Assembly (NCBI RefSeq): GCF_964355755.1
Contig: NC_092670.1
Location: 22,999,201 to 23,063,200, forward strand
Origin: Antedon mediterranea
Lineage: Eukaryota; Echinodermata; Crinoidea; Comatulida; Antedonidae
Length of the DNA: 64,000 bases
Reading direction: 5' to 3'
Positions 8,290-39,990 of the stretch are shown piece after piece; within the stretch, counting starts at the first letter, position 1; the number at the start of each line of letters is the position of its first letter. Below the pieces are notes generated by a model. That model saw nothing but the letters and a program-made list of their open reading frames with translations, ran no database searches and had not been told where the DNA came from. The position numbers and the translations under genes are program-made.

Positions 8290-9447
8290 ACTAGATTTGA
8301 ACTCGTCACTACGGACGAGTTAGGTTATCCGCAGTGCAAAAGCCACGTGCACGTCGTACGTTAGAATAGTGCGCGCAAAAAAATAAAACGATTATGGCAT
8401 TGAAAAATGTTAGTGCGCTCTCTATGTTGCGTCGCGTCTAAGTATATACGGTATAACACTATATACTGTATACGTACTACATACAGTGCAGGATAGGTGA
8501 AAATAAGTGACCAAAGTTATTGACGCTTTTGAACATGATGACGTCATCACAATTTTAAAAATGGTAGATTATGCGAAAGATAATTGATCGACCTAGACAA
8601 TATATAAAAATGGAGGGAAATGAAATACGGATAAGTGGAGATGCGCTCTATTAAATATGATGAGCTATGAAGAAAGAGACAAAAATTCTATATTTTATAT
8701 TCGAGTGGCCATACGATGACGTCATAAGGTCCGTTTAGCCATATTGATACATGATTCGATATCTGCAACTCATCTACTACCAGAATTTGTAATTATAAAA
8801 AAGTTCACCACGTAGTTTAGAATCTATGACAGTTTAAAAAAAGGCATAATTTTGACAAATTTTTGAACTTTTTCATCAAAAATGCGCGTAAATTGTTTAA
8901 TTCTACGTGCTCGTATGACGTGATTTTAAGTCGAAATTGTTTGAAAGCTGGTAAATTTTCTAAAAAAGACAGGAAAAACAAAAATCAATCAAAAAAATGA
9001 TGTTTTTGCGCTACGTGCGCACGTGCGCGTAAAAAAATTGCGCACGCATGGGAATTTTTGAAATGCTCAAAATGACATGAAACGCGTAGAAAGTTGATTA
9101 GATATTAATTTTTCGCATTTTGAAATTTTAAATACGCGTGCGCGCGTAACTTATTATGAAACATGCCATTTTTAATCCATAGAAACTTTGCGCATTATAT
9201 GACTTAAATGTTCACCAAGTTTCAATACAAAACGACTTTTAGTTTTTATTCTATGATCAATCATTGAAATTCACAAAATCGCGCGTAACTTACGCTGCGC
9301 GACTCGAAATTTGAAAAAAAAAGTTTCTTGCACATCTACAGCTACAGGGCAATCTTTTGACAAAGTTATACAATCATATGTTGGCCAGAATTAGAGATAC
9401 GCTGCGCACAAAAAATGGGGGAGAAGGATGTAAGGAAAGAAATAAAT
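8290..9447 (+). repeat. Satellite unit, no tail cassette
   Basis: 1158 bp. It ends in the alternative tail AAGGAAAGAAATAAAT directly before the next junction. Confidence 0.9.
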
Positions 9448-10730
9448 ACTAGATTTGAACTCGTCACTACGGACGAGTTAGGTTATCCGCAGTCCTAAAG
9501 CCACGTGCACGTCATACGTTGGAATATTGCGCGCAGAAAAACGATTATGCCATTGAAAAAATGTGAGTGCGCTCTCTATTTTGTGTCACGTCAAAGTGTA
9601 TACGGTATACACTATATACCGTATACGTACTACATACAGTTCAGAATAGGTGAAAATAAGTGACCAAAGTTATTGACGCTTTTGGACATGATGACGTCAT
9701 CACAATTTTTAAAATGGTGAATCGTGCGAAAGATAATTGATAGACCTAGACAATATAAAAAAAATGGGGGGAAATGGAATACAAATAAGTGAAGATGCGC
9801 TATATTAAATGTTACGAGCTACGAGGAAAGAGACAAAAATCCTATATTTTATATTCGAGTGGCCATATGTAGACGTCACAATGTCCGGTTAGCCATATTG
9901 ATGCATGATTTGATATCTGCAACTCATCTACTACCAGAATATGTAATTATAAAAAAGTTCACCACGTAGTTTAGAATTTATGACTGTTTAAAAAAAGGCA
10001 TAATTTTGACTAATTTTTTAACTTTTTCATCAAAAATGCGCGTAAATTGTTTAATTCTACGTGCTCGTATGACGTGATTTTAAGTCGAAATTGTTTGAAA
10101 GTTGGTAAATTTTCTAAAAGAGACAGGAAAAACAAAAATCAAGCAAAAAAATGATGTTTTTGCGCTACGTGCGCACGTGCGCGTAAAAAAAATTGCGCAC
10201 GCATGGGAATTTTTGAAATGCTCAAAATGACATGAAACGCGTAGAAAGTTGATTAGATATTGATTTTTCGCATTTTAAAATTTTAAACGCGCGTGCGCGC
10301 GTAACTTTTTGTAAAACATGTCATTTTTAATCAATAGAAAGTTTGCGCATTATATGACTTAAATGTTCACCAAGTTTCAATATAAAATGAATTTTAGTTT
10401 TTAATCTACGATCAATCATTGAAATTCATAAAATCGCGCGTAACTTACGCTGCGCAACTCCGAAATCGTCCAAAAGCTTGGCTGCACATCTACAGCTACA
10501 GGTCAATCTTATGACAAAGTTATACAATGTTATATTTGCCAGAATTAGAGATATGCGACCAACAAAATTCGTGGAAAGAAAGAAGAACAAAGAAAAAGAA
10601 AAAGAAAAAAAAAAAAAAAAAAAAAAAGATCCTGACAATAACAAGGGGTTATCCGCCAAGTGCGGATAACCAAAAAAAAAAAAAAGATCCTGACAATAAC
10701 AAGGGGTTATCCGCCAAGTGCGGATAACCA
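9448..10730 (+). repeat. Satellite unit, two tail cassettes
   Basis: 1283 bp. Two hairpin cassettes lie at about 10607-10730, preceded by an AAAGAAAAAG-type tract. Confidence 0.9.
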
Positions 10731-11949
10731 ACTAGATTTGAACTCGTCACTACGGACGAGTTAGGTTATCCGCCTCGCAAAACCCACGCGCATGACACCT
10801 AAGTTAGAATATTGCGCGCAGAAAAACGATTATGCCATTGAAAAAATGTTAGTGAGCCCTCTATTTTGTGTCGCGTCTAAGTGTGTACGGTATACACTAT
10901 ATACTGTATACGTACTGCATACAGTGCAGAATAGGTGAAAATAAGTGACCAAAGTTATTGACGCATTTGAACATGATGACGTCATCACAATTTTAAAAAT
11001 GGTGAATCATGCGAAAGATAATTGATTGATCTAGACAATATAAAAAAATTGAGTGAAATGGAATACGGATAAGTGGAGATGCGCTCTATTAAATTTGACG
11101 AGCTATGACGAAAGAGAAAAAAATCTTATATTTTATATTCGGGTGGCCATACGATGACGTCACAATGTCCGGTTAGCCATATCAATGCATGATTCGAGAA
11201 AAACAACTCATCTACTTCCAGAATATGTAATTTTAAAAAAGTTCACCACGTAGTTTAGAAGTTATGACAGTTTAAAAAAAGGTCTAATTTTGACGATTTT
11301 TTGAAGTTTTTCATCAAAAACACGCGCAAATTATCCAATTCTACGTGCTCGTGTGACGTGATTATAAGTCGAAATTGATTGAAAATTTATAAATTTACTA
11401 GAAAAGGCTGAAAAAATAAAAATCAAGCAAAAAAAAGATGTTTTTGCGCTACGTGCGCACGCGCGCGTAAAAAAATTGCGCACGCGTGGGAATTTTTGAA
11501 ATGCTCAAAATGACATGAAACGCATAGAAAGTTGATTAGAAATTGATTTATCGCATTTTGAAATTTTAAACGCGCGTGCGCGCGTAACTTTTTAAAACCA
11601 TGCCATTTTTAATCCATAGAAAGTTTGCGCATGATATGACTTAAATTTTCACCAAGTTTCAATACAAAATGACTTTTGGTTTTTAATCTATGATCAATCA
11701 TTGAAATTCATAAAATCGAGCGTAACTTACGCTGCGCGACTCGAAAATCAAAAAACAAAGTTTCTTGCACATCTACAGATATAGTTCAATCTTATGACAA
11801 AGTTATACAATCATTTGTTAGCCAGAATTAGAGATATGCTTGCAACAAAATTCGTGGAAAGAAAGAAGAAAAAAGAAAAAAAAGAAAAAAAATAAAAAAA
11901 AAAAGATCCTGACAATAACAAGGGGTTATCCGCCAAGTGCGGATAACCA
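10731..11949 (+). repeat. Satellite unit, one tail cassette
   Basis: 1219 bp. The start word GGTTATCCGC is followed by CTCGC rather than the usual AGCGC. Confidence 0.9.
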
Positions 11950-13100
11950 ACTAGATTTGAACTCGTCACTACGGACGAGTTAGGTTATCCGCAGCGCAAA
12001 GGCCACGTGCACGTCATACGTTAGAATATAGCGCGCAGAAAAACGATTATGCCATTGAGAAAATGTTAGCGCGCTCTCTATTTTGCTTCACGTCAAAGTG
12101 TATACGGTATACACTATATACTGTATACGTACTACGTACAGTTCAGAATAGGTGAAAATAAGTGACCAAAGTTATTGACGCTTTTGCACATGATGACGTC
12201 ATAACAATTTTTAAAATGGTGAATCATGTGAAAGATAATTGATTGACCTAGACAATATAAAGAAATGGAGGGCAATGGAATACGGATAAGTGGAGATGCG
12301 CTCTATTAAATGTGATGAGCTATACGAAAGAGAAAAAAATCCTATATTTTATATTCGAGTAGCCATACGATGACGTCACAATGTCCTGTTAGCCATATTG
12401 ATACATGATTCGATATCTACAACTCATCTACTACCAGAATATGTAATTATAAAAAGGTTCACCACGTAGTTTAGAATCTATGACTGTTTAAAAAATGCAT
12501 AATTTTGACAAATTTTTAGACTTTTTCATCAAAATTGCGCGCAAATTGTTTAATTCTACGTGCTCGTATGACGAGATTTTAAGGCAAAATTGATTGAAAG
12601 TTGATAAATTTATTATAAAAGACAGAAAAAACAAAAATCAAGCAAAAAAAAGATGTTTTTGCGCTACGTGCGCACGTGCGCGTAAGAAAAGTGCGCAAGC
12701 GTGGGAATTTTTGAAATGCTCAAAATGACATGAAACGCGTAGAAAGTTGATTAGAAATTGATTTTTCGCATCTTGAAATTTTAAACGCGCGTGCGCGCAC
12801 AACTTTTTGCGCAACCTGCCATATTTAATCTACAGAAAGTTTGCGCTTTATATGACTTAAATTTTCACCAAGTTTCAATACAAAATGACTTTTGGTTTTT
12901 AATCTATGATCAATAATTGAAATTCATAAAATCGCGCGTAACTTACGCTGCGCAACTCGAAATTTGAAAAAAAAAGTTTCTTGCACATCTACAGATATAG
13001 GGCAATCTTTTGAAAAAGTTATACAATCTTCTGTTGGCTAGAATTAGAGATACGCTGCCCACAAAAAATGGGAGAGAAGTGTGGAAAGAAAGAAATAAAT
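11950..13100 (+). repeat. Satellite unit, no tail cassette
   Basis: 1151 bp, ending in the AAGAAATAAAT tail. It closely resembles the unit at 14308. Confidence 0.9.
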
Positions 13101-14307
13101 ACTAGATTTGAACTCGTCACGTTGACGAGTTAGGCTATCGCCCAACGCATCGTAACACGCACATGTTATTTATTATGCTTAGTCTACAATAGGCTGCACT
13201 ACAACGATTGTAAAGAACAGCTGGAATACATCAAAATCGTTTAATAAGTGTCAACAGTTGACGGTATTAGCATTGTAAACGGTTTAGTTGACGGTTATTT
13301 TTTATTTTACACCACTCACGTTTATTCAATTATTTGAAAATGATGACCTTTTCAAATTAAAAAAAAAGTTCATAAGTCTAAAAAGGAATTGTTTTAGTAA
13401 TAAAATATTGAAAATTGGAAGAAAATTGATAACGTTTACGCGGTATGCGCTCTATTGAATGTGACGAACTGTGTCGAAAGAGACAAAATCCCTATATTTT
13501 ACATTTGTGTGGCCATACGATGACGTCACAACAGCCCAGAGGTAAACATTTTGCATGAATTCATATCTACAGTATATATGCTTACATATTAGGTTAAAAA
13601 AATTGGGGGTCACCAGACATCCCGGAGAGCTATAATCGATTCAAAATAGGCATATTTTTACACAAATTTGCATAAAATTACCAATTTTCAAGCGCACGAT
13701 TTTTAAAGTTTGACGTGCACGTGTGTCATTATTTTGCATTCATAATTCATCAAATATGAAAGAAATATATCATAAAACTATGAAAAACAATAATCAAGCG
13801 CAAAAACGGGCTTTCTAGGCTGCGTACGAGCGAAGTGCGCAATAGCGCGCGCGCAACGCAAATTTTTTTTGAAAAATGTGAAATGCTTAAAATGTCCTGA
13901 AACGTGTAGAAAGTTGATTAGAAATTGATTTTGAGCATTTTTAACTTTCAAAGCGCGCGTACGCGCGATTTGACCAATGTTCAAAATTTTGCTGATGATA
14001 CAGGAAGATGACCCTTGACATGAAGCATACGTGTGTCAAGTGGTATTTAAAAATAGCTATTGGTTTTCAAGTTATAGTCAATCTAAGAATTTCAGAAAAT
14101 CGCGCGTAGTTACGCTACGCGACCATATTTTCATTAAACCAAAGTTTGTTGCACAACTACATATATACGTGCATCTGCTGGCCAAGTTACAACATAACTG
14201 CTACCGCCGTTTTTGAGATCTGCGTGACACAAAAATTGAGCAGAAAAAATGAAATTTGTGACAATAACAATAGGCTATCGCTCTACAGAGAGTAGAGCGA
14301 TAGCCTA
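13101..14307 (+). repeat. Highly diverged satellite unit with covarying ends
   Basis: 1207 bp. Much of the interior matches the others poorly. It keeps the junction word, the start hairpin arms (loop ACGTT), a conserved core around 13445-13530 including TGACGTCA, and the tail word TGACAATAACAA. Its start word is AGGCTATCGC (13132-13141) instead of AGGTTATCCGC. Its tail hairpin has a new 15-bp perfect stem that begins with the same AGGCTATCGC (14272-14306). Confidence 0.9.
14272..14306. repeat. 15-bp perfect stem-loop at end of diverged unit
   Basis: Arms AGGCTATCGCTCTAC and GTAGAGCGATAGCCT pair perfectly around loop AGAGA. It sits where other units have the GGTTATCCGC / GCGGATAACC hairpin, two bases before the junction word. 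Confidence 0.95.
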
Positions 14308-22978: not shown

Positions 22979-23398
22979 ACTAGATTTGAACTCGTCACTA
23001 CGGACGAGTTAGGTTATCCGCAGCGCAAAAGCCACGTGCACGTCATACGTTAGAATATTGCGCGCAGAAAAACGATTATGCCATTGAAAAAATGTTAGCG
23101 CGCTCTCTATTTTCCGTCACGTCAAAGTGTATACGGTATACACTATATACTGTATACGTACTACGTAAAGTTCAGAATAGGTGAAAATAAGTGACCAAAG
23201 TTATTGACGCTTTTGCACATGATGACGTCATAACAAATTTTAAAATGGTGAATCATGCGAAAGATAATTGATTGACCTAGACAATATAAAGAAATGGAGG
23301 GGGAAATGAAATACAAATAATTGGAGATGCGCTATATTAAATGTGACGAGCTACGAGGAAAGAGACAAAAATCCTATATTTTATATTCGAGTGGCCAT
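22979..23398 (+). repeat. Truncated last unit of left array
   Basis: A standard unit start that stops after GAGTGGCCATA at about 23398, inside the sequence normally leading to the second CRE. Confidence 0.85.
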
Positions 23399-23572
23399 AA
23401 TTGTACGTATTTTGTGTCATAAAACAGATAATAATTGTATTTAAGGAATATTCTGAATATGTTATATACAGTGTAGCAAAGATTAAATTACGAGACCTAT
23501 TTTTTAATTCAATTTTTAACTTGAAGGAATCATCAAAACGTAATATAAAGATAGTAATTTAAATCTAGTCTT
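23399..23572 (+). repeat. Fragment of variant-type satellite at block edge
   Basis: It resembles the variant front seen at 5690-5870: a GTACGTATTTTGTGTCAT-like start, TTATATACAGTG, ATTACGAGACC and an ATCATCAAAA-like end. The same fragment, further decayed, starts copy B near 31715-31795. Confidence 0.7.
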
Positions 23573-23943
23573 TTGTGCTGCCACCTAGCATAGTTTTTTT
23601 TTCTCTTCTGGTCATCATCATGTATCATGCATGCATACTCTGTCTGCTGAAAGTAGACTATACGCGCATGCGGAAGAGTAGTTGGGGGTTAAGCCACGCC
23701 CATTTATGTAAATTGCCCACGTTCGTCCTGGAAAAAAAAAAATTACACGGTGGTAAATGTGATATATTTTACGTTGTGATTGGGTATATAGTTATTTGGT
23801 AATGACTGAACATGCGCATTTTATTTTTATATTGAGCATTTGATTGGTTCAAAATTTCCATCAATGACGCTCTTGTATAAAAGTTAAGATAGAGTAAAGT
23901 AGTTAGTTGGAAAGTCAATGTAAAGTCAAGGTGTTGGGAAAGG
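23573..23943 (+). promoter_or_regulatory. 5' flank of OB-fold gene, possible TATA promoter
   Basis: It contains TATAAAAG at about 23876, some 70 bp upstream of the start codon, and AAAGGATGTCG as start context. The parallel flank of copy B (31800-32076) is clearly related, including CTAGCATAGTTTTTTT and GAACATGCGCA. Promoter status is inferred from position only. Confidence 0.4.
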
Positions 23944-26900
23944 ATGTCGAAATTACGGAAGATTTACATTGTGGAAAAATTTGAACGGAGAGAATCTTCC
24001 AAGGGGCGGAGATTCTTCGGTGTTGGTTCAGTGTTGGAATGTGGTGATACCGAAGTAAGGAATTGCTATATAAATGATACAGAAAGTGTAGGAGCAGAAA
24101 GGTTATTCATGTTAGAAGTAGGAACAAAGGTTATGATAACCGAAGTGAAACCAAGCCTTGATAATAATTCGTTGAGGTTGACAGACAAATCTAAGGTATG
24201 TAATTAACGTATTTTTTGTAAATTAATATTATTATTATTATAATTGTTTATTTAATTTATAAAAGTGTCATTTATTTGTTATTAAGCCCTAGGTCTATAT
24301 CTATGTTGATATAAAATAGAATCCGTGGGTCACTATTGTTCTTAAAAAACTAAAACGGTACTTATATATACTTATGATCCATTATAACAATTATAAAACA
24401 ATGTCATTTTAATTTAGAAACCAGTTGATAACAATTGAATAATAAATAATAAACAGACGTTATTAACAGAATAGGGAGGAGAAATTGTTTATTTTCAATT
24501 AATTTACTCATTGATTGTTTATTTAAATTTTGTCATGAAATTTGCAATTTGTAGGCTAGGCTATTGTTTATAACATTAAAATAACATTTACATTGATAAA
24601 ATTACAATTAAGCATAATTTTCTGAGTGTTCGGTCTAGCGTATGCCATATTGCCAGAATAAGTTAATTGTAAATTCTTAGTTGTATGATTTCTTTTTAAT
24701 AAATACCATTTTCTGTTCAAGTACAAATTGAAGTAAGAAATTACGAAACTGTGGTTTACAGTTTCGTAATTTCTTACTTCAATTTGTACTTGTATATATA
24801 AACACAATAGGCAAAGAACATTAATTCTAAACCGTCCGGTGATATACTGAAATTTAATTAATTAATTTGAAACGATAAAGATGAGGAAATCTGTGAGAAT
24901 GAGAAAAAGTCGCCCCAACCGAGACTCGAACTCGGACCGCCTGCTTGATATGCAGATGTCCTAACCATTAGACCACTGGAGCTTTCATGGTATTGTTCGA
25001 ACTCGATTGGATAACGACTCTTTAACATTCTCGGCGTGGTACGGCGGAACAGCACTAGAATATTATTTTAATCATAATTTTTCTTTTGTGATTTTAAGGT
25101 TTTGACAAACATTGCTGATTTTGATATCAATATGGAAGTTGTTAGTAATTTTATCAGACCACCGACGGTGTCAATGTCAGCGGCTAGGGGAAGCCCGAAG
25201 AAAACGAGGTTATCTTTGAATGGAACAGTAATGAAGGTAACATTTTCTCTTGATTTAATCTAGGGCATAGGCTTATAGCACAGTTATGAAATTATGAGCT
25301 AGTTACGTTTCGTACCTTGCTTTTATTTCGACTCCAAATTTGTTATGGAACTTTATCCTGAATACCACACCTTAGAATTAGACATCATAATTACTTTTAC
25401 GATGAATTACAGAAAAAGTAACAAATAAATCCTTTAAATTGAGGGATTTCCTGACCTGTTTTTTGCACATGGTTTGTAAATTTCGCTAATTGATGTTTAT
25501 ATGGAGCGCCAAAAGAGAAACTATAATAGAGATTCAAAACTGAGTGGAATGCGTCTACTTTTTATGCATCTATTTATGAAATACACGTTTTAATTTCCAT
25601 TTTTTTTTTCAATAAAAATATTGTAACATGTTACTTCTGAAAACGTACTGAAGTTTGTGTATACAAAATTCAAAATTTACACGTCTGTAAAATCATTTAA
25701 AGAATTTATTTGTTACTTTTTATGTGATTCTTCTTCATACAAGTACTTTGAGCCCCAATTGTAAGGTGTGGTATTTACAATAAGTTACTTAACAAGTTTG
25801 AAGTCGAAAGGAAGTCTAAATAAAAACAGGTGCTAAACGGAACTAGTGGCGTTATGAACAGTTATAAATTTGGTACTTTGTTTAGACTTGAGGATGAATG
25901 AAGTTATATTATTATCATATTGGATTGTTTTATTTAGATACTCATTAATCAGTTTTACTATGCAATATGATGGATTATGATAAATAAACATTTTTTGTTT
26001 ATCTTATTGAAGTAATAGATTTTCACCAGTAGTATATATTCAATTATAAACTATTAGACTATTAGTGTAGGCCTATTATAATTTGAAAATTGTTAATTTG
26101 GTAATATAGTTTTAATAATCAATTACTAGATTAAAAGAAACCCAAAAATATATAATATAGCACCAGTTTTAACATCACATGCCTTTGTTGTTTTTTTGTT
26201 GGTTTAGGTTGGTGAACTTTATGAAACACCAAGATATAAAAGAAGATTGTTGACATTAGGCAGTGGCCCAGATAATTGTATCGACGTAGTTTTGTGGGGG
26301 GAGACTGCCTCAAATGTATCGAGTGATATGAAAAATCAAGAACTAACCCTATCAGCACTAGTAATGGAAGACAAAGAGTTGAGAAGTACTCCATCAACAG
26401 TGTTGGAGGTATGCATTTTTTTTATTACTTTTTGGTAAATGAATAGGCCTATGCAACAGTGGTTTTGTTTTAAAATGAAAACAACATTGATATCATATTG
26501 AATAAATGTATAGAAAGTATTATAGAGTGCCAATATCTATCAATAGCTTGGGAAGTCATATTGAAACATTTTCTAATAAACATTGAATATTTTGTTAGAA
26601 ATTATTTATAGCTTGTTTGAAAGCAATGTGTTATAGTATTGTCTCAACTCAAAAAAAGTATCAAAAAACATAATATTTGTATATTGTTTTATATTTAGGT
26701 TATTTTGGTGAGAGATAAATATCAATTAACTGTGTATATGTTGTAGATAAGGTTATTTTATATGTGTATTAAATCATAACCAATGTTCAATATATTTCAT
26801 TTGTTTTTTTTGTGATGTAGGCTGGTGGAGTTAATTCAGTTGATGGTGTAATTGTGGCTGTAGGAGATGAAAATGATGGGTATGTACTTTTTTTGCAATG

Positions 26901-27401
26901 TTTAATTTGTTTATATTAAATTTGGTGATTGTGATATAATTGACTTAAAAAAAAATAATTTGTCCTAAAAAAATTGTTTTCAATATGCCATTTTAATGTG
27001 AAATAATAGTTTAATGAAATTAGAGAAAAAAGTTATTTACCTAAAAATACTGTAATTTAAGGCAAAAATAGTCAAAATGGTTGCTTTTGGTTAAGATGTG
27101 AAGATTTTGTTTCTTCTCTTAAACTACAAAATGGGTTATTTAAAGTCTAATGTTAATATTTTTTTTTCAAAGAATTTGTATTTGGGGGACAATGCATCTT
27201 TAAAATATTATATTTTATATGTATTTTGATTATTATAATGATTGTTTTGATTGCAGGTATCCTGTAGACATGTACATGGACAATGATTCTGTATTATACA
27301 TACCAGAAGATCTACACTTTGATTTCAATATTAATTTGCCATGTCGTGTGAATTATTCTGCTAATAGTTTTGGGTGTATTACCGATATTCAATTTTTGTA
27401 A
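23944..27401 (+). CDS. Five-exon gene, RPA-like OB-fold protein, 264 aa (copy A)
   Basis: Exons are 23944-24195, 25099-25236, 26208-26408, 26821-26879 and 27257-27401. Every intron is GT-AG and the phases join (0, 0, 0, 2), giving 264 codons ending in TAA. Residues 55-84 (RLFMLEVGTKVMITEV onwards) and exon 3 (KRRLLTLGSG then DVVLWGE) resemble RPA/ssDNA-binding OB folds, where a basic strand leads to a V-x-LWG-E turn. I infer a ssDNA-binding role, possibly nuclear. Some animal and plant Helitrons carry RPA-like genes, so mobile-element origin is possible, as is a multicopy host gene. Truncated copies lie nearby on both strands. No signal peptide or membrane segment is seen. The start has an in-context ATG after AAAGG. 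The family assignment rests on motif memory only. Confidence 0.65.
24718..24792. repeat. Perfect 35-bp-stem inverted repeat, 5-nt loop
   Basis: The left arm starts CAAGTACAAATTGAAG and the right arm ends CTTCAATTTGTACTTG. All 35 pairs match around loop GGTTT. Copy B has only a left-arm-like sequence (AAGTAAGAAATGACC, about 32968), so the right arm looks like a recent inverted duplication tied to the insertion that also brought the tRNA. A small-RNA precursor is possible but unsupported. Confidence 0.95.
24911..24982 (-). tRNA. tRNA gene, anticodon reads AUC (Asp codon GAU), antisense in intron
   Basis: On the minus strand the cloverleaf closes fully. The acceptor is GCTCCAG / TTGGGGC (with G-U and G-T pairs) plus discriminator G. 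The D stem is GTCT / GGAC, the anticodon stem TCTGC / GCAGG with loop ATATCAA, and the T stem CCGAG / CTCGG with loop TTCGAGT. A TTTTT terminator follows three bases downstream. There is no intron. The anticodon by position is ATC. Eukaryotic Asp tRNAs normally use GTC, so identity is uncertain and this may be a tRNA-derived pseudogene or SINE head. Confidence 0.75.
25237..26207 (+). other. Intron 2 of OB-fold gene
   Basis: GTAACA donor and GGTTTAG acceptor, AT-rich. I see no nested gene in it. Part of it is alignable with copy B 33186-33510. Confidence 0.65.
26409..26820 (+). other. Intron 3 of OB-fold gene
   Basis: GTATGC donor and TGATGTAG acceptor after a T-rich tract. Nothing else is recognisable. 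Confidence 0.65.
26880..27256 (+). other. Intron 4 of OB-fold gene
   Basis: GTATGTAC donor after phase 2, TTGATTGCAG acceptor. The distal part (from about 27054) is well conserved in copy B at 33515-33733. Confidence 0.65.
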
Positions 27402-27457
27402 GGTAACAGTTGTTTGCAAGTTTGTTTTAATGCGTTTTTATTTTATATATTTGTTGA

Positions 27458-27503
27458 AAAGTAAATTTAATGATTTTGTACTTAAAATCATTAAATTTAC
27501 TTT
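27458..27503. repeat. Perfect 20-bp-stem hairpin 3' of OB-fold gene
   Basis: Arms AAAGTAAATTTAATGATTTT and its exact complement flank loop GTACTT. It lies 56 bp past the stop codon and is preserved in copy B (33935-33980) with loop GTACGT. The arm sequence resembles the nearby AT minisatellite words. Confidence 0.9.
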
Positions 27504-27622
27504 CATTATTTATTAATATACTGAATTAACATTGATTATTTAATAGACATATATGATAATCTTATGTACAAAATATACAATGCTAATTAATATTTAAAAA
27601 AAGTAATAAAGGAAATACATAC

Positions 27623-28050
27623 CTCCAACACTGTTGAAGGGTAGTTCTTAACTCCTTTTCTTCCATTATAAGTGCTGATATTGTTAATTTGATTTGTCAT
27701 AGCACCCGATAGACCCAAGGCTGCTTCCCCTCCACATAACTACGTCGATACAATTAAGTAGGCTAATGCCTAATGTCAACACTTTTTTTATATTTTGGTG
27801 TTTCATACGGTAATACATTAATTGCATACCTTAGATTTGTTTGTCAACCTTAACAAATTATTATCAAGAGTTGGTTTAAGTTTGGTTATCATAACCTTAC
27901 TTCCAACATATAACATGAATAATTGTTTTGCTACTACACCTTCTGTGTCATTTATAAAGCAATTTTTTACTTTGGTATTATTACTTTAAATTACTGAACC
28001 AACACTGAATATCTCCGCTTCTTTGAAGATTCCCTCCGTTCAAATTTGTT
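27623..28050 (-). pseudogene. Inverted truncated copy of OB-fold gene (exons 1 and 3)
   Basis: On the minus strand, exon-1 sequence (from KFERR-like at about 28050 to its GTATGC donor near 27826) runs almost directly into exon-3 sequence, which ends at GTGTTGGAG plus donor (27623). Exon 2 and most of introns 1 and 2 are missing. Splice donors are retained, so this arose by genomic deletion rather than retrocopying. Frame damage is visible in both parts. Confidence 0.8.
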
Positions 28051-28200
28051 AATTATAATTTTATCAATTTAAATGTTTTAAAAACAATATGTTATAAACC
28101 AACTAACCTATAAAGTTTAATAAACGCTGGATTTTAAAAATGTGAAGGTTGAAATGTCTTTCCTCTCAAATTTTTAAGTATTAAATTTGAGTAAATTTTT
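28051..28200. other. AT-rich spacer
   Basis: Alignable with 34546-34690 of copy B. No coding or RNA feature seen. Confidence 0.6.
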
Positions 28201-29830
28201 TTTTTTAAATGATGTAATTTGTTTCTAAATATTTTTATATTTATCGTCAGTGTAATTTGCTGCTGATTAAGATAAATATAAATGTGCATTTGAATATTTT
28301 TTTTTTTGATAATTAGTGTAATTTATTTGTAATTGAGATAAATTATTAATGTCAATTTAATGATTTTGTATTTATAAATTTGAATGATTTTTTTGCTAAT
28401 TACAATACATAATGTAAAGTGTAATAATTGTGTATTATCAGTGTAATTTGTTGGTAAATGAGTTAATTAATGTAAATTTAATAATTGTGTATTTATAATC
28501 AGTGTAATTTGCTGCTAATTAAGATAAATGTAAATTTTGTATTATAATTTTTTTTATTTTGTTGTTAATTAAAATAATTTAAAATCAGTGTAAATGAGTT
28601 AAATGAATAATATAAATATATTAATTTTGTATTATATAAATTTATTTAATTATAAATAAAAGAATTCAAATTTATATTAATTATTTATCTTCATTATCAA
28701 TAAATTACACTAATTATAAATACAACATTTAGGTTGCATGAAATATTATATTAGCAGTAAATTACACTGATTATAAACATAAAAACATTAAATTGACATT
28801 AATTTTTTAACTCATTTAGCAACAAGTCACTGATTTTGAGTAGAAAATCATGAAATTTACAATAATTATTTATTTAAAGTAGCACCAAAACTAAACTGAT
28901 TATAAATACAAAATAATATCAATATGTTAAAGGGTGGTCTTACCTGTTATCTCTTTAATTTTGCTTACATTTTATTTAGCCTTAAATATTACCAAAACAA
29001 CCACACAATTTGGTAAAAAACAGAAATTATGCATTATAACATCCCCTGAAATTACCTGTTTTTGTTTGACATCGTGTTGTCGTTACACGGAAATCAGCAT
29101 ACATTTAATAATTTTGTATTTATAATCAGTGTAATTTGCTGCTAATTTAGATAAACAATTTAAATTTTGTATTATAATCTTTGTACTTTGTTTTTAATTA
29201 AGATAATTTAAAATCAGTAAATTTAATAATCTTGTATTTATAATTGGTGTAATTTGTTGCTAATAAATATTTATTGTAAATTTTGTATATAATTAGTGTA
29301 ATTTATTGCTAATTAAGATAAATAAATAATGTAAATTTGAATAATTTTTTTATTTATAATTTGTGTAATTTATTGGTAATTCAGATAAATTATTGATTTA
29401 AATTTAATGATTTTGTATTTATAATAATAATTTTTTTTCGTTTTGCTAATTACAATAGATAATATAAATTGTAATCATGTTGTATAATCAGTGTAATTTG
29501 CTGATGATTAAGATAAATAATGTAAATTTTGTATTTAATCAGTGTAATTTTTAGTTGGTAAATGAGTTAAATTATTAATGTAAATTTGATAATTTTGTAT
29601 TAATAATCAGTGTAATTTACTGCTAATTATGATAAATAATGTACTTTTTTTTATTCTTTGTACTTTGTTGTTAATTGAGATAATTTAAATTATTCTAAAT
29701 TATTGGTAGGCCTAAATGAGTTAAATGAATAAATAAATGTAAATATAATAATTTTGTATTATAATCGGTGTAATTTGCTGCTAATTAAGATAAAAAATGA
29801 ATGTAATGTTTGCCACAAGATAACTATTAA
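28200..29830. repeat. AT-rich minisatellite block 1
   Basis: Irregular repeats of a ~55-65 bp consensus built from ATCAGTGTAATTTGCTGCTA, ATTAAGATAAATAATGTAAA and TTTTGTATTTATA. A stretch at about 28660-28900 is in the opposite orientation. Around 28920-29100 it is interrupted by less repetitive sequence. Confidence 0.85.
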
Positions 29831-30325
29831 ATGCCATTGTGATATGATTTTAATTGTTTTAGTCATTTTTTGATTTTATTCCATTTATGTTAGCCGTTAG
29901 TTCTTACACAGTTATGAGGAAAATGGCTATTCAGCATTGTGGTCATAGGAGGTTACAAGAGTTTTGCAAAATCAGCACATTGTGTAACTTTAGTTGCAGT
30001 TTTATGGTAAAACCTTTTAACTACTCGATAAGCTAAATATTGCAAGTTTTGCTGTGATAGTGTAAAACCAGGTGGGTATAATAAACAAATAGCTAAAGGT
30101 TCAATATTAATCTTACCAATGTCGAAAAAAGCCGACAATGGAAAACGTCATCCAGCCACCAATGGCGAGAAAAGCCGACATGTAGAATGACCTCATTCAA
30201 ATGAGATTTTAGCTAACTTCGTTCACCGAGAATGATTATCCTTGAAATTATCGAATAATCTGATTGTTTGTTACTTCAAAATCATTTTTTATTTGCTTTA
30301 AAAAACTTCTACTGATTCATAATTT

Positions 30326-30451
30326 ATGGCTGCTAATGATGATGACACAGTTGATGAGGTGATCGATATTTTGTTTGCAGATGACAGGGACGAAAAAGAT
30401 TTTGAAATCGGGGTACCGCAAACAAACTGGTGCAGAGTTACCGCTGCTTAG
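30326..30451 (+). CDS. Small acidic ORF, 41 aa, unrecognised
   Basis: Begins MAANDDDTVDEVIDILFADD and ends at TAG. The bias to Asp/Glu and the sensible start resemble an N-terminal exon, and a TTTTGTTTGCAG acceptor-like string lies inside it. No counterpart is seen in copy B. It could be chance. Confidence 0.2.
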   Translation: MAANDDDTVDEVIDILFADDRDEKDFEIGVPQTNWCRVTAA

Positions 30452-30675
30452 TACATCAGCTGTCTTTAGTATTTAACGAATTATTATTAATTAATTGGCC
30501 ATTGTTTTTTTTTTTATGTATTTTAATAAAGGATACATTATTAATAATTGACAATTGTTGTATTCACTTACAACTAAGTATAACACATTTTGTTTATTTT
30601 TATGTAACGATTGTTTTTTTATTCAAGTCATAAATTGAGTCAAATTTTATTTTTTTACAAAACTGCCCAAACTGT

Positions 30676-31017
30676 TCAAAATTTGTGCATCCGTGTGCGC
30701 CATATTTTAAAAATCTGAACAACAGTTTTCAACTTTCGATAAACAATAATTGTTATAGTGTGACACTCAGCAGCAACGCACAAACTTCTCTCTGAGCGAC
30801 GTGCCAAAGACATTGTTGACATTCCATTATGTAGGAAATCAACACGTGTACTTTTCTCGCAAATTAAGTGAACAGTGATGGCCAGGACAAGTTCACTAAT
30901 TGGCGGTGAATAAAAGGTAACTGATATGCCGATCAAATAAAATGCCGTAAATAAAAAAAATTGCGAGAGAATTTGACGACCCCGGTGAACGACCTCGAAA
31001 CGGACGACCCATAACAC
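30676..31017 (-). other. Unrecognised minus-strand open segment, paired with 38265-38645
   Basis: The reading contains a hydrophobic stretch (FYLIGISVTFYSP) followed by a basic Ser-rich stretch (MSLARRSERSLC). The second copy keeps the same frame over this part with several substitutions. It could be an exon fragment of a membrane protein. No family recognised. Confidence 0.25.
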
Positions 31018-31299
31018 AAAACCGACGACCCCTACAGGCTAGCCTAGGCCTAAGTGTGGTATAACATTCCGAGGCCGAACATAGCCAAAGATCTTTAAAC
31101 CATACCTTATATAATACTTGGAAGCAAGCAATTGATTGAAAAAATACATAAATATCGCCATTTGATACTGAATGTGTCGACACGAACAAACGGACAGATA
31201 TGGAATGCAAAGAGTGCATCATTAAAACTGCATTTGACATGTTAAAAATAAATTAAAAAAAGAAAAAAATATGTGGTTGTTTTGATATTGTTTAAGGCT

Positions 31300-31735
31300 A
31301 AATAAAATGTAAAATAAATTAAACTCAGTGTAATTTGTTGCTAAATAGGTTAAATGGTTAATGTAAAGTTAATGTTTTTATATTTATAATCAGTTTAATT
31401 TGTTGCTAATAAATATTTCATGCAGCCTAAATGTTATATGTATAATTAGTGTAGTTTATTGATAATGAAGTATGGGTTAATTGATTAATGTAAAGTTAAT
31501 GTTTGTAAATTTATAATCAGTGTAATTTGCTGCTAATAAATAATTAAATTTGGTATTATAATTAGTGTAATTTATTGGTAATGAAGATAAACAATGTAAA
31601 TTTGAATAATTTTTTGTATTTATAATTAGTGTAATTTATTGATAATTTAAATAAATTATTAATGTCAATTTAATGATTTTTTATTTATAATCTGCAATTT
31701 TTTTTGCAAATTACAAAACACCCTTTTTTAATCAA
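31300..31735. repeat. AT-rich minisatellite block 2
   Basis: The same AATCAGTGTAATTTG-type unit as block 1, ending at the start of duplication copy B. Confidence 0.8.
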
Positions 31736-32076
31736 ATTTTTAACTTGAAGGCATCATCAAAATGTAATATAAAGATAGCAATTTAAATCTTAAATTATTT
31801 TGTGGTGCAACCTAGCATAGTTTTTTTTTTCATTGCTAGTCACCATATCGGGTAATATTTTGGATATATTTTACGTTGTGATTGGACATTTAGTTACTGC
31901 TGTTTTTGGTAATGACTGAACATGCGCACTTTATTGTTATATTGATCATTTGATTGGTTAAAAAATGTCATGCGCAAAAGTTGAGGTATAGTAGTACACG
32001 TAGCTAGTTAGGTAGTTAGTTGGAAAGAAAGTCAATGTAAAGCCAAGGTGTATGTATCATGATTGTGGAGAGAGGG

Positions 32077-33878
32077 ATGTCGAAAATACGTAAATTGTAT
32101 ATACACTAGTCGAAAAATTTGAACGGAGGGAATCTTCCAAGAAGGAGCGGAGATCTTCGGTGTTGGTTCAGTGTTCGAATGTGGCGATACCAAGTAAAGT
32201 ATTGGTATATAAATGAGACCGAAGGTGTAGGCCTAGTTGCAGAACGATTATTCATGTTAGAAGTTGAAAGAAAAGTTATGAACCGAAGTTAAATCAAGTC
32301 TTAATAATAATTGGTTGACACATCTAAGGTATGCAATTATTATTAATGTATATTTTTTGTTATTATAGGCCTACCTAGGCCTATATTTGTTTATTTAATT
32401 TACAAAAGTGCCATTTATTTGTTATTTATTAGGTCCTAGGCCACGTCTAGGCCTATGCCTATATGTTAATATAAAATAAAATCAGTTAAAAAGTTAAGAC
32501 GGTACCTAAAAATATACTTATCCATGTTAACAATTATAATAGTTTAATACAATGTCATTTAATAAGATTTAGAAACCAGTTGATATAAATAATTGAATAA
32601 TAAACAGACGTTAAATTAAAGGAATAGGGAGTAATTAATTGGTTTTTTTAAAAATTAATTTACTCAGTTATTTAATAATTAAAAATTTGAGGGGAAGGAC
32701 ATTTCAGTCTTGACATTTGTAATATCCGGTGTTTATTTAAACTTTGTCATCATGAAATTTGCAATTTGTAGACTAGCTAGTTGTAGGCCATTGGTAGGCC
32801 TAGAGGCCTATATAGGCTATATAACATTAAAATAAAATTTAAATTGATAAAATTAGAATTGAATTATAATAATGGTTATGCCCATATTGTGATCTCAGTA
32901 TAATTGTAAACTCTGAGTCGTATGATTTTTTTTTAATAAATAACATTTTCTGATGTTTTTTCATTAAGTAAAGTAAGAAATGACCAACCTGTGTGGTAGG
33001 TCTAGGCCTATATACATATTTTGTTTTAATGATTATTTTTCTTTTGTGTTAATAGGTTTTTACAAATATTGCTGATTTTAATGTCAATATGGAAGTTGTT
33101 CGTAATTTTGTCAGATTACCGACGGTGTCAATGTCAACAGCTAGGGGAAGCCCGAAGAAAACGAGAATGGGACATTAATGAAGGTAACATTTTTTCTTTA
33201 TTTAAGCTAGGCCTAGGCTTATAGCACAGTTATGAACGGCGCTAGTTTCGTTTCGTACCTGAACTTTATTTCGACTCCAAATTTGTTAAGGAACTTTATC
33301 CTGAATACCACACCTTTGAATTAAACCTCATATATGCTTTTACGATGTGGAGTTATAGAAAAAGTAACAAATAAATCCTTTAAATTGATGAATTTTAAAT
33401 ACGACGTGTTTCTCGCACACGGTTTGTCAATTTTTGCATATTGACGTTTTTATGGAGCGCCAAAATAGCAACTATAATAGAAGACTAAAAGTCAGTGAAA
33501 TGTGTATAGGCAATTTAAGGCAAAAATAATCAAAATGGTTGCTTTTGGTTAAGATGCGGAAATTTTTGTTTCTTTTATTTTTTATGGAAGTGATTACTTC
33601 ATTAAAACTAGAGTCTGATGATAATAACCTTTTTTTTTTTTAATAATTTTTCATGTATTTGGGGGACAATGCATCTTTAAAATATTATGTTTTATATCTA
33701 TTTTGATTATTATAATGATTGTTTTGATTGCAGGTATCCTGTTGACATGTTAATGGAAAATGATGCTGTATTACACATATCAGAAGATCTACACTTTGAT
33801 TTCAATGTTAATTTGCCATGTCGTGTGAATTATTCTGCCAATAGTTTTGGGTGTATTACCGATATTCAATTTTTGTAA
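32077..33878 (+). pseudogene. Broken copy B of OB-fold gene (exons 1, 2, 5)
   Basis: The exon-1 start at 32077 reads MSKIRKLYIH and then stops, and further indels follow. Exon 2 (about 33057-33180) has a ~10-bp deletion near its end. Exons 3 and 4 and the adjoining introns are gone: sequence like intron 2 joins intron 4 near 33510. Exon 5 (33734-33878) is intact and its reading nearly matches copy A (e.g. YPVDMLMENDAVLH against YPVDMYMDNDSVLY). Confidence 0.85.
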
Positions 33879-33934
33879 GGTAACAATTATTTGCAAGTTT
33901 GTTTTAATGCATTTTTATTTTATATATTTGTTGA

Positions 33935-33980
33935 AAAGTAAATTTAATGATTTTGTACGTAAAATCATTAAATTTACTTT
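33935..33980. repeat. Perfect 20-bp-stem hairpin, copy B
   Basis: Same arms as 27458-27503, with loop GTACGT. Both arms remain fully paired while surrounding sequence has diverged slightly. Confidence 0.9.
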
Positions 33981-34099
33981 CATTATTTATTAATATACTG
34001 AATTAACATTGGTTATTTAATAGACATATATGATAATCTTATTTACAAAATATACAATGCTAATTAATATTTTAAAAAAGTAATAAAGGAAATAGATAC

Positions 34100-34545
34100 C
34101 TACAACACTGTTGAAGGGTAGTTCTTAACTCCTTTTTTTCCATTATAAGTGCTGATATTGTTAATTTGATTTGTCATAGCACCAGACACACCCAAGGCTG
34201 CTCCCCCCCCCCCCACACATAACTACGTCGATACAATTAAGTAGGCTAATGCCTAATGTAAACACCTTTTTTATATTTTGGTGTTTCATAGGGTATACAT
34301 TAATTGCATACCTTAGATTTGTTTGTCAACCTCTACGAATTATTATCAAGGCTCGGTTTAACTTCGGTTATCATAACCTTCCTTCCCACTTCTAACATGA
34401 ATAAGCGTTTTGCTACTACACGGGTACTACACCTTCTGTCTCATTTATATAGCAATTTTTTACTTTGGTATTATTACTTTAAATTACTGAACCAACACTA
34501 AATATCTCCGCTCCTTCGAGATTTTCCCTCCGTTCAAATTTGTTA
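34100..34545 (-). pseudogene. Inverted truncated OB-fold copy in duplication B
   Basis: Same exon-1/exon-3 fusion as 27623-28050. It has a C-run of about 11 at 34203 where exon 3 is G-rich, and a short insertion near 34425. Confidence 0.8.
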
Positions 34546-34689
34546 ATTATAACTTTATCAATTTAAATGTTTAAAAAACAATATTATTATAAACCAACTA
34601 ACCTATAAAGTTTAATAAACATTGGATTTTAAAAATATGAAGTCTGAAATGTCGCTCCCTGCAAATTTTTAAGTAATCAATTTCAGTAA

Positions 34690-35110
34690 ATTAATTTTTT
34701 TTTAAATGATGTAATTTGTTTCTAAATGAGGTAAATGATTAATGTAAATTTAATATTTTAATATTTATAGTCAGTGTAATTTGCTGCTAATTAAGATAAA
34801 AATGTACATTTGAATATTTTTTTTTTTTTGATAATTAGTTTAATTTATTTGTAATTGAGATAAATTATTAATGTCAATTTAATGATTTTGTATTTATAAT
34901 TGGTGAATTTTATTGCTAATTGTAATACATTATGTAAAGTGTAATAATAATGGTGTATTATCAGTGTAATTTGTTGATAAATGAGTTAATTAATGTAAAT
35001 TTAATAATTGTGTATTTATAATCAGTGTAATTTGCTGCTAATTAAGATAAATAATGTATATTTTGTGTTATAATCTTTGTACTTTGTTGTTAATTAAGAT
35101 AATTTAAAAT
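34690..35110. repeat. AT-rich minisatellite block 3
   Basis: Same consensus as block 1. It corresponds in position to the start of block 1. Confidence 0.8.
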
Positions 35111-35125
35111 CAGTGTAAATTATTG

Positions 35126-35185
35126 TTAGTCATAGCAGCCGACACTCTGGAGGCTGCTTCTTCCCACATAACTATGTCGATACAT
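35126..35185 (-). pseudogene. Exon-3 fragment of OB-fold gene
   Basis: The minus strand reads GTATCGACATAGTTATGTGG and then GCAGCCTCCAGAGTG, matching the IDVVLWGETAS part of exon 3. Confidence 0.6.
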
Positions 35186-35448
35186 CACTATGTCATACAA
35201 GGCAATAAATACATTTTTTTGTTTCTTGAAATCGTAACATGTGATGGTAAAACTGATGCTATATTATATATATTTGGGTTTCCTTTAATTATATAATTAA
35301 TTATATTAATAAATAATAGTTTATAATTGAATATATACATCTGGTGAATGTTTTATATCGACATAGACGTAGGCCTAATAACAAATAAATGGTACTTTTG
35401 TATATTAAATAAACAATTATAATAACAAAAAATATACATTAATTGCAT

Positions 35449-35675
35449 ACATTAGATTTGTCAACCTCAATGAATTATTATCAAGACTTGGTTTAACTTT
35501 GGTTATCATAACTTTTCTTCCCACTTCTAACATGAATAATCGTTCTGCTACTACACTTTCGGTATCATTTTTATAGCAATTCCTTACTTCGGTATCACCA
35601 CATTCGAACACTGAACCAACACCGAAGGAATTTCCCCCCCCCCCCCTGGAAGACTCCCTCTGTTTCAAATTTTTA
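35449..35675 (-). pseudogene. Exon-1 copy, tandem set member 1
   Basis: The minus strand carries exon-1 reading from KQRESS-like to SLRLTN. A G-run of 13 replaces the GGGGCGGAG part, changing the frame context. About 360-370 bp separates members of the set. Confidence 0.8.
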
Positions 35676-35822
35676 GATTATAATTTCATCTATTTAAATG
35701 TTTAAAAAAGTGATGCACAGATTCTATTTTATCAACATAGACATAGTCCTAATAACAAATAAATGGCACTTTTGTAAATTAAATAAGCAATTATATTAAC
35801 AAAAAATATACATTAATTGCAT

Positions 35823-36055
35823 ACCTTAGATTTGTCTGTCAACCTTAACGAATTATTACCAAGGATTGGTTTCACTTCGGTTATCATAACCTTTGTTCCT
35901 ACTTCTAACATGAATAACCTTTCTGTTCCTACACTTTCTGTATCATTTATATAGCAATTCCTTAATTCGGTATCACCACATTCGAACACTGAACCAACAC
36001 CGAAGGAATTCCCCCCCCCCCCCCTTGGAAGACTCCCTCTGTTTCAAATTTTTAG
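35823..36055 (-). pseudogene. Exon-1 copy, tandem set member 2
   Basis: Nearly the same as member 1, including an even longer G-run on the minus strand (C-run at about 36011-36024) and the same following sequence (TCTATTTTATCAACATAGAC). Members 1 and 2 are therefore each other's closest relatives. Confidence 0.8.
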
Positions 36056-36190
36056 ACTATTTAAATGTTTAAAAAAGTGATGCACAGATTCTATTTTATC
36101 AACATAGACATAGGCCTAATAATAAATAAATGGCACTTTTGTAAATTAAATAAGCAATTATATTAACACAAAATATACATTAATTGTATA

Positions 36191-36433
36191 ACTTAGATTT
36201 GTCTTTGAACCTCGATGAATTATTATCAAGACTTGGTTTAACTTCGGTTATCATAACTTTTCTTCCGATCTCTAACATGAATAATCGTTTTGCTAGTACA
36301 CCTTCTGTCTCATTTATATAGCAATGTTTTACTTTGATATCATTATATTTCATTACTGAACCAACACCGAAGAATCTCCGCCCCTTAGAAGACTCCCTCC
36401 GTTCAAATTTTTCGACTACCGTAATTTCGACAT
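36191..36433 (-). pseudogene. Exon-1 copy, tandem set member 3
   Basis: It lacks the long G-run and reads through FERRESSKGRRFFGVGSV. The equivalent ATG frame hits TAG after MSKLR. An upstream in-frame ATG (near 36626) gives a 148-codon open frame, which I regard as fortuitous. Confidence 0.75.
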
Positions 36434-36649
36434 CCTTTCGACAACACCTTGACTTTACATTGACTTTCATTGAATTTTTGATTATAAGTTTATCAATTTC
36501 AATGTTTAAAAAACAATATGTTATAAACCATACAACTAGCCCACAAATTGGAAATTTCATGATGAAAAAGTTTAAATAAACACTGTATTTTAAAAATGTC
36601 AACACTGAAATGTCTTTCCTCTCCAATTTTTAATTAACAATCAGTTCGA

Positions 36650-37520
36650 GTAAATTAGTAAAAAAAAAAATTGATGTAATTTTGTTGTTAAATGATTAAT
36701 GTAAATTTAATATTTTTATATTTATAATCAGTGTCATTTATTGCTAATTAAGATTAATAATTAATGTAAATTTGAATATTTTTAAACATTTATAATTAGT
36801 GTAATTTATTGGTAATTCAGTTAAATTATTAATGTAAATTTAATGATTTTGTATTTATAATTGGTGAATTTTTTTGCTAATTACAATATAGAATGTAAAG
36901 TGTAATAATGTGTATTATCACTGTAATTTGTTGGTAAATGAGTTAATGTAAATTTAATATTTTCGTATTTTTATTGGTGTAATTTGCTGCTAATTAAGAT
37001 AAACAATGTGAATTTTGTATTATAATTTTTGTACTTTGTTGTTAATTAAGATAATTTAAAATCAGTGTAATTTGTTGGTAAATGAGTTAAATGAAAAATA
37101 TAAATATAATAATTTTGCTAATTGAGATAAATTATTAATCTAAATTTAATGATTTTGTATTTATAATCGGTGATTTTTTTAAAAATTACAATAGATAATG
37201 TAAAGTGTAATCATTTTGTATAATCACTGTAATTTGCTGCTAATCAAGATGTAAAGTTTGTATTATTAATCTTTGTACTTTGTTGCTAATTAAAAATGAT
37301 TTAAATTAGTGTAAATTGTTGGTAAATGAGTTAAATGAATAATATAAATATACTTATGTTATATTTACAATCAGTGTAATTTGCTGCTAATTAAGATATT
37401 TTAAAATTAGTTTAATTTGTTGTTTGTTGAGTTAAATAAATAATATAAATATAGGCCTAATAATGTTGTATTTATAATCGGTGTAATTTGCTGCTAATTA
37501 AGATAAATAATTAATGTGCT
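36650..37520. repeat. AT-rich minisatellite block 4
   Basis: Same AATCAGTGTAATTTGCTGCT family, with variable spacing. Confidence 0.8.
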
Positions 37521-38680: not shown

Positions 38681-38739
38681 AATACTAACCTAGACCACTC
38701 TTCAACATATTGATATTATTTAATTTTGTATTTAGTTTA

Positions 38740-39270
38740 ATTTGGTGTTAGTTAAAATAAATAATTAATGTAAATTTAATGATTTTGTACTTAAAGTCAG
38801 TGTAAATTGCTAAATGAGTTAAATGTTTTTATATTTATAATCAGTGTAATTTGCGGCTAATAAATATTTAATGTAGCCTTAATTTTATATTTATAATTAG
38901 TGTCATTTATTGGTAATGAAGATAAATAATTTATATAAATTTAAAAAAATGTTTTTTTTATTGGTAGGCTAATTGAGATAAATTGTTAATGTCAATTTAA
39001 TGATTTTGTAATGTATAATTGGTGAATTTTTTTGCTAATTGTAATAATACATTATGTAAAGTGTAATATTTAATTTTGTATTATCAGTGTGTTGGTAAAT
39101 ATGAAAATATATAATGTACGTAAATTTGGTATTATAATCAGTGTAATTTGCTGCTAATTAAGATATTTTAAAATCAGTTTAATTTGTTGTTGTTTGTTGA
39201 GTTAAATAAACAATATAAATATAGGCCTAATAATGTTGTATTTATAATCGGTGTAATTTACTGCTAATTA
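38740..39270. repeat. AT-rich minisatellite block 5
   Basis: Same consensus as the earlier blocks, ending in CGGTGTAATTTACTGCTA. Confidence 0.8.
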
Positions 39271-39690: not shown

Positions 39691-39990
39691 TCACTTGATG
39701 ACGTCATGATACCAGATAGACAACATGAATTCATATCTACAATTCAACAACTTCCATATTAAATTTTAATCATGTGGGTAACTTTTCATTCCGATTAGAT
39801 CTAAACAGATTAAAATATACTGTATAGATAAAATTAAGCAACTCATGTTATTCTAATTTTTTTATAATGAGGTAATGAAAATTTAAAAATGTTTAACATG
39901 TGAAGGAAAATTGATTTCTGTGGAACATTAATTTTGTTTTCAATAGAAATTTAGCGCACGATATAAATTAAAACTTTTATGGTGAAAGTG
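39690..39990 (+). repeat. Relic of variant-type satellite
   Basis: TGATGACGTCATGA, ATTCATATCTACAATTCAAC, TTTTAATCATG and TTTAGCGCACGATATAAATT follow the order of the variant satellite (compare 5995-6100 and 57215-57240). It is an old, isolated fragment. Confidence 0.65.

Follow-up and report, generated by a model that had tools for sequence, protein, structure and literature searches.

Matching subterminal words at the two ends of Helentron-related elements arrayed in the genome of a crinoid

Background

Why should two short words lying more than a kilobase apart in an arrayed repeat change together? The question is posed by a window of 64,000 nucleotides on contig C1 of the 354-Mb genome of the crinoid Antedon mediterranea, the left 23.4 kb and right 7.7 kb of which are occupied by units that are mostly 1.1-1.6 kb long (26 starts). 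The initial annotation of the window, made from its letters, pointed to a unit at 13101 whose start word and tail hairpin both differ from those of the standard units, and suggested that the two ends are recognised together, as in Helentron-type elements, or through pairing in nucleic acid. Here we describe the ends of these units, their recurrence in the genome and the explanations that may account for their matching. The units fall into five end types, designated A to E, and the unit at 13101 is of type B.

Results and Discussion

The two ends of the unit at 13101 share one word

By direct reading, the unit at 13101 has the start word AGGCTATCGC at 13132-13141 and a tail hairpin, TAGGCTATCGCTCTAC / AGAGA / GTAGAGCGATAGCCTA, at 14271-14307, the left arm of which is the start word and the right arm its complement. 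The match between start word and hairpin is TAGGCTATCGC, of 11 bases, and the additional bases of the stem are absent from the start word. Standard units have the word AGGTTATCCGC, for which we find 59 matches with at most one mismatch on both strands as against 0.31 expected from shuffles. The central observation of the initial annotation is thereby borne out: start word and left arm are the same, both read AGGCTATCGC in place of the standard word, and the right arm is altered to match.

The accompanying claim that the hairpin grew applies to the window copy, which does have the longer stem, but not to its family. Among 19 B-type rows read, the long stem (5 extra bases) is found only in the window copy; of the other 18, which represent 11 distinct copies since L004-L006 lie within L027, 14 keep a 14-bp stem with the loop ACAG unchanged, L008 has a shortened stem, and L013, L015 and L040 carry substitutions. 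Genome-wide, 24 of the 28 B hairpins with the exact word span 30 nt and the window copy spans 35, and the three others, with spans of 32, 39 and 40, may have grown too. Near-full-length copies of the unit at 97-100% identity number 20 among the 58 matches listed, the window copy included, in a search that scored 40 of 3051 candidates.

The suggestion that the interior is much less conserved than the ends is likewise true in part. A and B are 67% identical over 542 bp and 84% identical over 51 bp at the left end, with no further match at 1e-8, and a blastn search at 1e-8 found no match of the D interior to A, B, C or E. Among A, C and E, by contrast, long matches run at 76-85% identity. A whole-unit alignment by MAFFT misplaced the ends of C and E, and its identities by region were set aside.

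The units are HINEs and are read on the minus strand

The units are HINEs, that is, non-autonomous and non-coding relatives of Helentrons, and lie on the minus strand. The direction assumed initially is thus reversed: what was called the tail hairpin is a 5' palindromic subTIR and what was called the start word is the 3' subTIR. The B-type unit has the following parts.

13102..14307, minus strand: B-type HINE copy, with its canonical 5' end at 14307 and its 3' CTAG end at 13102; the solo copy L003 has both same boundaries
13102..13105, minus strand: CTAG 3' terminus on the canonical strand, followed by T (direct reading; the example copies of all five end types, A to E, have it as well)
13111..13131, minus strand: 3' stem-loop AACTCGTCA/CGT/TGACGAGTT (direct reading; present in all five example copies)
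13132..13141, minus strand: 3' subTIR, formerly the start word
14271..14307, minus strand: 5' palindromic subTIR with a 16-bp stem, formerly the tail hairpin

In canonical orientation, one example copy each of the five end types shows the order T(T), 5' subTIR with its inverted copy (the hairpin), T-rich tract, interior, 3' subTIR, stem-loop, CTAG and T, where the T-rich tract is long in A, C, D and E and short in B. The 5' copy of the subTIR lies near the terminus and the 3' copy is internal, the shared words being 10-13 bp long, with the A word at or slightly below the printed subTIR length of 11-15 bp. In every example the 3' subTIR is followed just past it by a separate stem-loop and then by the CTAG end, and the 3' stem of D shows a compensatory change (ACTCGTC/GACGAGT to ATTCGTC/GACGAAT). 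The same order is given for HINEs and DINE-1 in the published descriptions drawn upon here (PMC4067079, PMC2374699, PMC7492417). Compared with canonical Helitrons, the five end types do not have the 5' TC or the lack of terminal inverted repeats, but they do have a 3' CTRR with a palindrome about 11 nt upstream, in the form of CTAG with a stem that ends about 9-10 nt before it.

The solo copy L003 reads host, A, CTAG, stem-loop, word, interior, hairpin, host as it lies, and T, hairpin, interior, word, stem-loop, CTAG, T when reverse-complemented. An arrangement with the true 5' end at TTAGGTTATCC, in which the stem-loop would be the end of the previous unit, was rejected because the left flank of L003 joins the element at CTAG. 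The flanks of solo copies are A/T-rich, and the flanks of two nested sites join without clear duplication, though A/T runs could hide 1-2 bases. Two points stand against the orientation proposed here. The gene for the Helentron protein described below reads opposite to the canonical direction, which is the minority case in the part of PMC4067079 that treats it, and CTAG ends outnumber hairpins in the arrays, while plant Helitron arrays are described in PMC12628747 as having several 5' ends and one 3' end, a pattern that would suit the opposite orientation here.

A Helentron protein gene lies in the same array

Between the two arrays of the window lies a long open reading frame within a larger unit.

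45155..54289, plus strand: Helentron protein of 3044 aa with OTU, Rep (Helitron_like_N), PIF1 helicase and C-terminal endonuclease domains
22979..56325, minus strand: 33-kb unit with the Helentron gene; its left 420 bp are mostly 90-95% like HINE 3' ends and its right end is HINE-like, with no hairpin

The protein matches Helitron_like_N (1.5e-36), PIF1 (6.8e-29) and Exo_endo_phos (8.9e-9); to our knowledge, Helitrons have no endonuclease domain. It also matches the herpesvirus tegument N-terminal domain, a cysteine protease. The translation contains FYRIEFQMRGSPHVH, with the Rep residues that are diagnostic of Helentrons, F/Y-x-R and an S between G and P at motif 2, according to the rule as it is set out in PMC4067079. 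Together with the anatomy of the five end types, this protein in the same array confirms the Helentron-type identity that had been proposed from the ends.

We infer that the 33-kb unit is a single element. Matches to its Rep region number 90 in the genome among those listed. Of these, 46 (the window copy included) span almost all of the 501-aa query at 84-100% identity, and 39 of the 46 belong to open frames of 2,800 aa or more. More distant Rep relatives comprise single ones at 70 and 67%, with others at 42% and below. HINE-like sequence follows the gene in L062-L064. Of seven autonomous copies, the five in which the end was read (the window copy, L060, L061, L064 with L066, and L065), as distinct from L062/L067 and L063/L068, have no intact 5' hairpin, and no HINE-type hairpin was found in 5 kb at L058 and L059, which represent the 70% and 67% protein classes. 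Ends of autonomous copies that had been guessed from start positions (L049-L057) were discarded, as four supposed right ends turned out to be further HINE units.

Counted by eye on C1, class I proteins seemed to go cleanly with word A and class II proteins with word C, but the association was not upheld, because GGTTATCCGC starts also adjoin class II genes, C elements occur in a class I cluster, and D hairpins lie beside one class II gene. D-type starts and hairpins surround a Helentron gene of 87% identity at 24450937 (C1:24412538-24459361).

The 33-kb unit has further features of its own. Exon-like frames with the look of an OB fold, some of them repeated, are present at 23893-24207 (+), 26208-26438 (+) and 35417-36629 (-); we do not claim them as RPA-like exons, given a Pfam REPA_OB_2 match at E = 0.075 only and no match to solved structures at E up to 1. 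A tRNA-Asp (anticodon atc) is predicted by ARAGORN at 24911-24982 (-), and the unit also has a 75-bp self-complementary stretch (93% in a blastn self-match) at 24718-24792, and tandem repeats of 367 bp and 342 bp at 35356-36418 and 42423-43695, respectively.

Matching ends recur in subfamilies with words of their own

Matching words are seen in A (with E), B, C and D, which amounts to four words, two of them differing by one base. Telling A from C rests on that base. Words of different types have 4-9 bp in common, apart from A and E, whose word is the same. Most elements read have the start word directly repeated in the left arm, about 1-1.5 kb away. When 32 elements with both ends read were compared, counting up to 3 flanking bases, all 32 shared at least 9 bp with the left arm and 31 also with the right arm, in a sample that is biased in that its loci were picked by similarity to the 13101 unit or by a conserved start. 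The exception, L040, is unmatched on its right arm. These elements (15 of type A, 12 of B, 1 of C, 1 of D and 3 of E) derive from 42 rows with a start and a hairpin, less 7 overlapping loci and 3 spurious hairpins. The most independent type is D, which has its own word, no interior match to A, B, C or E, and the compensatory 3' stem described above; its 13-bp word, AGGTTATATGCAT, occurs genome-wide in 561 starts and 538 hairpins, with none in reversed-pattern controls.

Matching extends to elements found by pattern along contig C1. Below 23.0 Mb, 33 of the 47 listed C and D hairpins have a start 600-2200 bp upstream in a start list that excluded F-type starts, and 32 of the 33 pairings are of the same word; the sole mismatch pairs a C hairpin with an E start and proves, when L036 is read, to be a nest. 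No listed start accompanies the other 14, and stacked hairpins share starts. Below 12.4 Mb, with more start classes, 45 of the 48 starts that are followed next by a hairpin have the same word as that hairpin (A/E 11/11, C 18/18, D 14/14, F33 1/1 and F 1/4), B starts being unscored since B hairpins are absent from that list. Starts followed next by a hairpin make up 11 of 23 in A/E, 18 of 43 in C and 14 of 23 in D.

All three exceptions to the 45 belong to start class F, which comprises 31-nt matches with the GGTTATCCGC word, assigned by pattern. This class accounts for 71 of the 100 places listed below 12.4 Mb on C1, of which 67 are followed by a further start or by no feature within 2.2 kb, 3 by a C-word hairpin and 1 by a matching hairpin; the six members of the 33-nt class F33 have a matching hairpin in one case and none in five. 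Genome-wide, GGTTATCCGC starts number 1787 against 984 hairpins. Class F units either are without hairpins or have hairpins of a word outside those searched. They form arrays of units of about 1.5 kb, for example at C1 921415-939888 and 5697014-5816110, with almost no hairpins of the searched words nearby.

The proposal that the ends change together thus finds its counterpart in other subfamilies, each with its own word, in 31 of 32 elements and 45 of 48 starts. No subfamily with unmatched ends was seen among A, B, C and D, while class F, with its three C-word hairpins, speaks in part against coordination.

The arrays appear partly nested

The stretch of the window that leads up to the B element contains the following A-type features.

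8291..9448, minus strand: A-type body without a hairpin
9449..10671, minus strand: A-type element, apparently an insertion into the tract of the 8291 element
10672..10730, minus strand: extra hairpin module (A-tract, GATCC, hairpin), read as a putative severed 5' end
10732..11949, minus strand: complete A-type HINE, with its 3' subTIR at 10763-10773 and its 5' palindromic subTIR at 11924-11948
11951..13101, minus strand: A-type body with no 5' hairpin, ending in an A-rich tract (T-rich canonically) that adjoins the B element

The order of start 8291, start 9449, hairpin 10634 and hairpin 10692 fits one insertion, and 10672-10730 is probably the severed 5' end of the A-type body at 8291..9448. 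The A-type body at 11951..13101 may similarly have been interrupted by the B element at 13102..14307, by analogy with two loci elsewhere. At L036 the flanks of an E element join into a continuous C-type end (83% over 126 bp). At L027 a C body and its C hairpin are split in the A-rich tract, and between them stand three B elements together with one A hairpin that has no open A start in the locus. Eight A-type subTIR hairpins are stacked 51-62 bp apart at C1:14500156-14500592. Since younger elements occupy the T-tract just inside the hairpin of an older element at the loci read, we consider the arrays to be partly nested.

In a bracket count along C1 below 23.0 Mb, in which each start opens a bracket and each hairpin closes one, we entered 143 of the 150 hairpins listed and 179 of the 183 starts, from a list without F-type starts, leaving out 6 hairpins in start-less clusters and 1 hairpin with 4 starts on the minority strand. 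Of the 143 hairpins, 124 close a same-word start at the top of the stack, none cross and 19 find no start, with 55 starts staying open; when the count is read backwards, 56 close. Hairpins that do not come directly after a start close in 32 of 51 cases. The absence of crossing is no evidence alone, because 1228 of 2000 shuffles of units also had none. Shuffling units in the 20 larger clusters gave 91.1 closings (sd 2.7) against the 97 observed, a number matched or beaten in 31 of 2000 shuffles. Near-equal genome-wide counts (C, 1099 starts and 1096 hairpins; D, 561 and 538) were dropped as a proof of nesting because GGTTATCCGC starts and hairpins are so unequal in number, and a first start pattern that also totalled 1099 is taken to coincide by chance with the C start count. 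Nesting is seen at single loci, and as a general rule it is weakly suggested.

A tentative generalisation, to which we give slightly less than an even chance, is that Helentron satellites are nested brackets, in which the T-tract inside the 5' subTIR would be a landing pad where later copies insert, leaving the older hairpin beyond them. Formation of arrays by insertion is not a new idea in itself, as PMC12628747 reports, in the portion considered here, insertion-site preference as the main route to Drosophila transposon dimers and parts of oyster Helitrons inserted in other elements.

Proposed mechanism and alternatives

Taken as a whole, the observations are very probably best explained by minus-strand HINEs of a crinoid Helentron, with matched subTIRs that are recognised at both ends and with partly nested arrays. 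The Rep/helicase protein or a partner would recognise the subTIR at both ends, and only copies with matching ends would be mobilised, so that surviving changes would be present at both ends and in both arms of the hairpin. The coordination would then reflect selection for two ends accepted by one transposase. New copies would enter the tract just inside the hairpin of older copies, as seen at a few loci and plausibly more widely, and such an insertion would sever the old hairpin, leaving it beyond the new copy and yielding partly nested arrays.

Recognition could instead be by pairing in a single strand, the 3' subTIR pairing with the first arm of the 5' hairpin in a transferred strand or circle, with the changes being compensatory. 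All three copies repeat or complement a single word, as pairing would have it, and the D stem-loop itself shows compensatory change, but protein recognition of one word predicts the same data; we regard pairing as rather unlikely. The initial suggestion of joint recognition or pairing is supported as to the joint change of the ends, which protein recognition and nucleic-acid pairing would both yield. Matching could also arise without selection, if gene conversion or template switching homogenised the ends. The direct repetition of the start word in the left arm of most elements read would allow this, but the right arm has changed too and the matching does not go past the word (11 bases in B, 13 in D), where conversion tracts might extend further, which makes homogenisation improbable. 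That the units are ordinary satellite DNA, their ends being similar by shared descent only, would agree with tandem arrays of 1.1-1.6-kb units; this is very improbable in view of the solo copies L003, L030, L047 and L048, which have precise ends and no HINE match in their flanks, and of the Helentron gene inside the array.

As to the arrays themselves, rolling-circle read-through of a missed terminator, or unequal exchange, may have produced them in place of nested insertion. This corresponds to the view of Helitron arrays put forward in PMC4067079 and PMC12628747, so far as these sources were consulted, and it would suit the runs of hairpinless units with like junctions and the F-type runs almost without listed hairpins. 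The stacked hairpins, such as the eight at C1:14500156-14500592, and the heterotypic nests in L036 and L027 count against it, and we consider it a substantial possibility, if not a probable one.

Relation to known elements

The crinoid units resemble the HINE/DINE-1 elements of mites, Drosophila and oysters, as these are described in the accounts cited above, in a 5' subTIR that lies 0-4 nt from the terminus and has its inverted copy next to it, a microsatellite near the 5' end, an internal 3' subTIR with a stem-loop just past it, an apparently T-rich target and subTIR sequences that vary between families. They differ in a 3' end that reads CTAG and has, like that of Helitrons, its stem-loop about 9-10 nt upstream, in a 3' subTIR about 32 nt from the end (38-60 in the mite description) and in whole units that form kilobase arrays. 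A Helentron-type Rep signature is combined with a CTAG 3' end also in the proto-Helentron of Phytophthora infestans, for which PMC4067079 describes a Helitron-like structure (5' TT, 3' CTAG) and insertion between A and T; unlike that element, the units here have subTIRs and A/T-rich flanks. The CTAG end is shared also with the Helitron Helraiser, whose palindrome lies 11 nt upstream of CTAG, but Helitrons such as Helraiser have a 5' TC and no terminal inverted repeats according to the description in PMC4778049. Tandem arrays of Helitrons in plants and dimers of transposons in Drosophila (PMC12628747, as far as consulted) similarly consist of head-to-tail copies truncated at one end, whereas in the crinoid extra hairpins are stacked beyond inserted copies and the words tell which hairpin fits which copy.

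Coordination of the ends is not new, because subTIRs are by definition matched, and such ends were already described for DINE-1 in 2008. In the sections drawn upon, Yang and Barbash 2008 (PMC2374699) describe inverted repeats that keep their structure while the sequence changes and compensatory change in the 3' stem, and Thomas 2014 (PMC4067079) defines families by identical subTIRs. New here is a crinoid Helentron element whose variant feature is the combination of subTIRs with a CTAG end. Among the titles and abstract openings listed in our searches of the open-access literature, we saw no paper that treats the repeats of this genome, nor one that describes Helentron copies as nested within their own T-tract.

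Implications

For the question of what a Helentron transposase recognises, the matched words amount to natural experiments: one genome holds several end words together with dozens of protein copies in distinct identity classes. If the arrays are nested, self-targeting insertion would provide a route to kilobase satellites that is testable against the terminator-bypass view. If the nested-bracket reading is true, the order of CTAG ends and hairpins would record the history of insertion through the subfamily words, and a kilobase satellite could grow by self-targeted transposition, needing neither unequal exchange nor terminator bypass.
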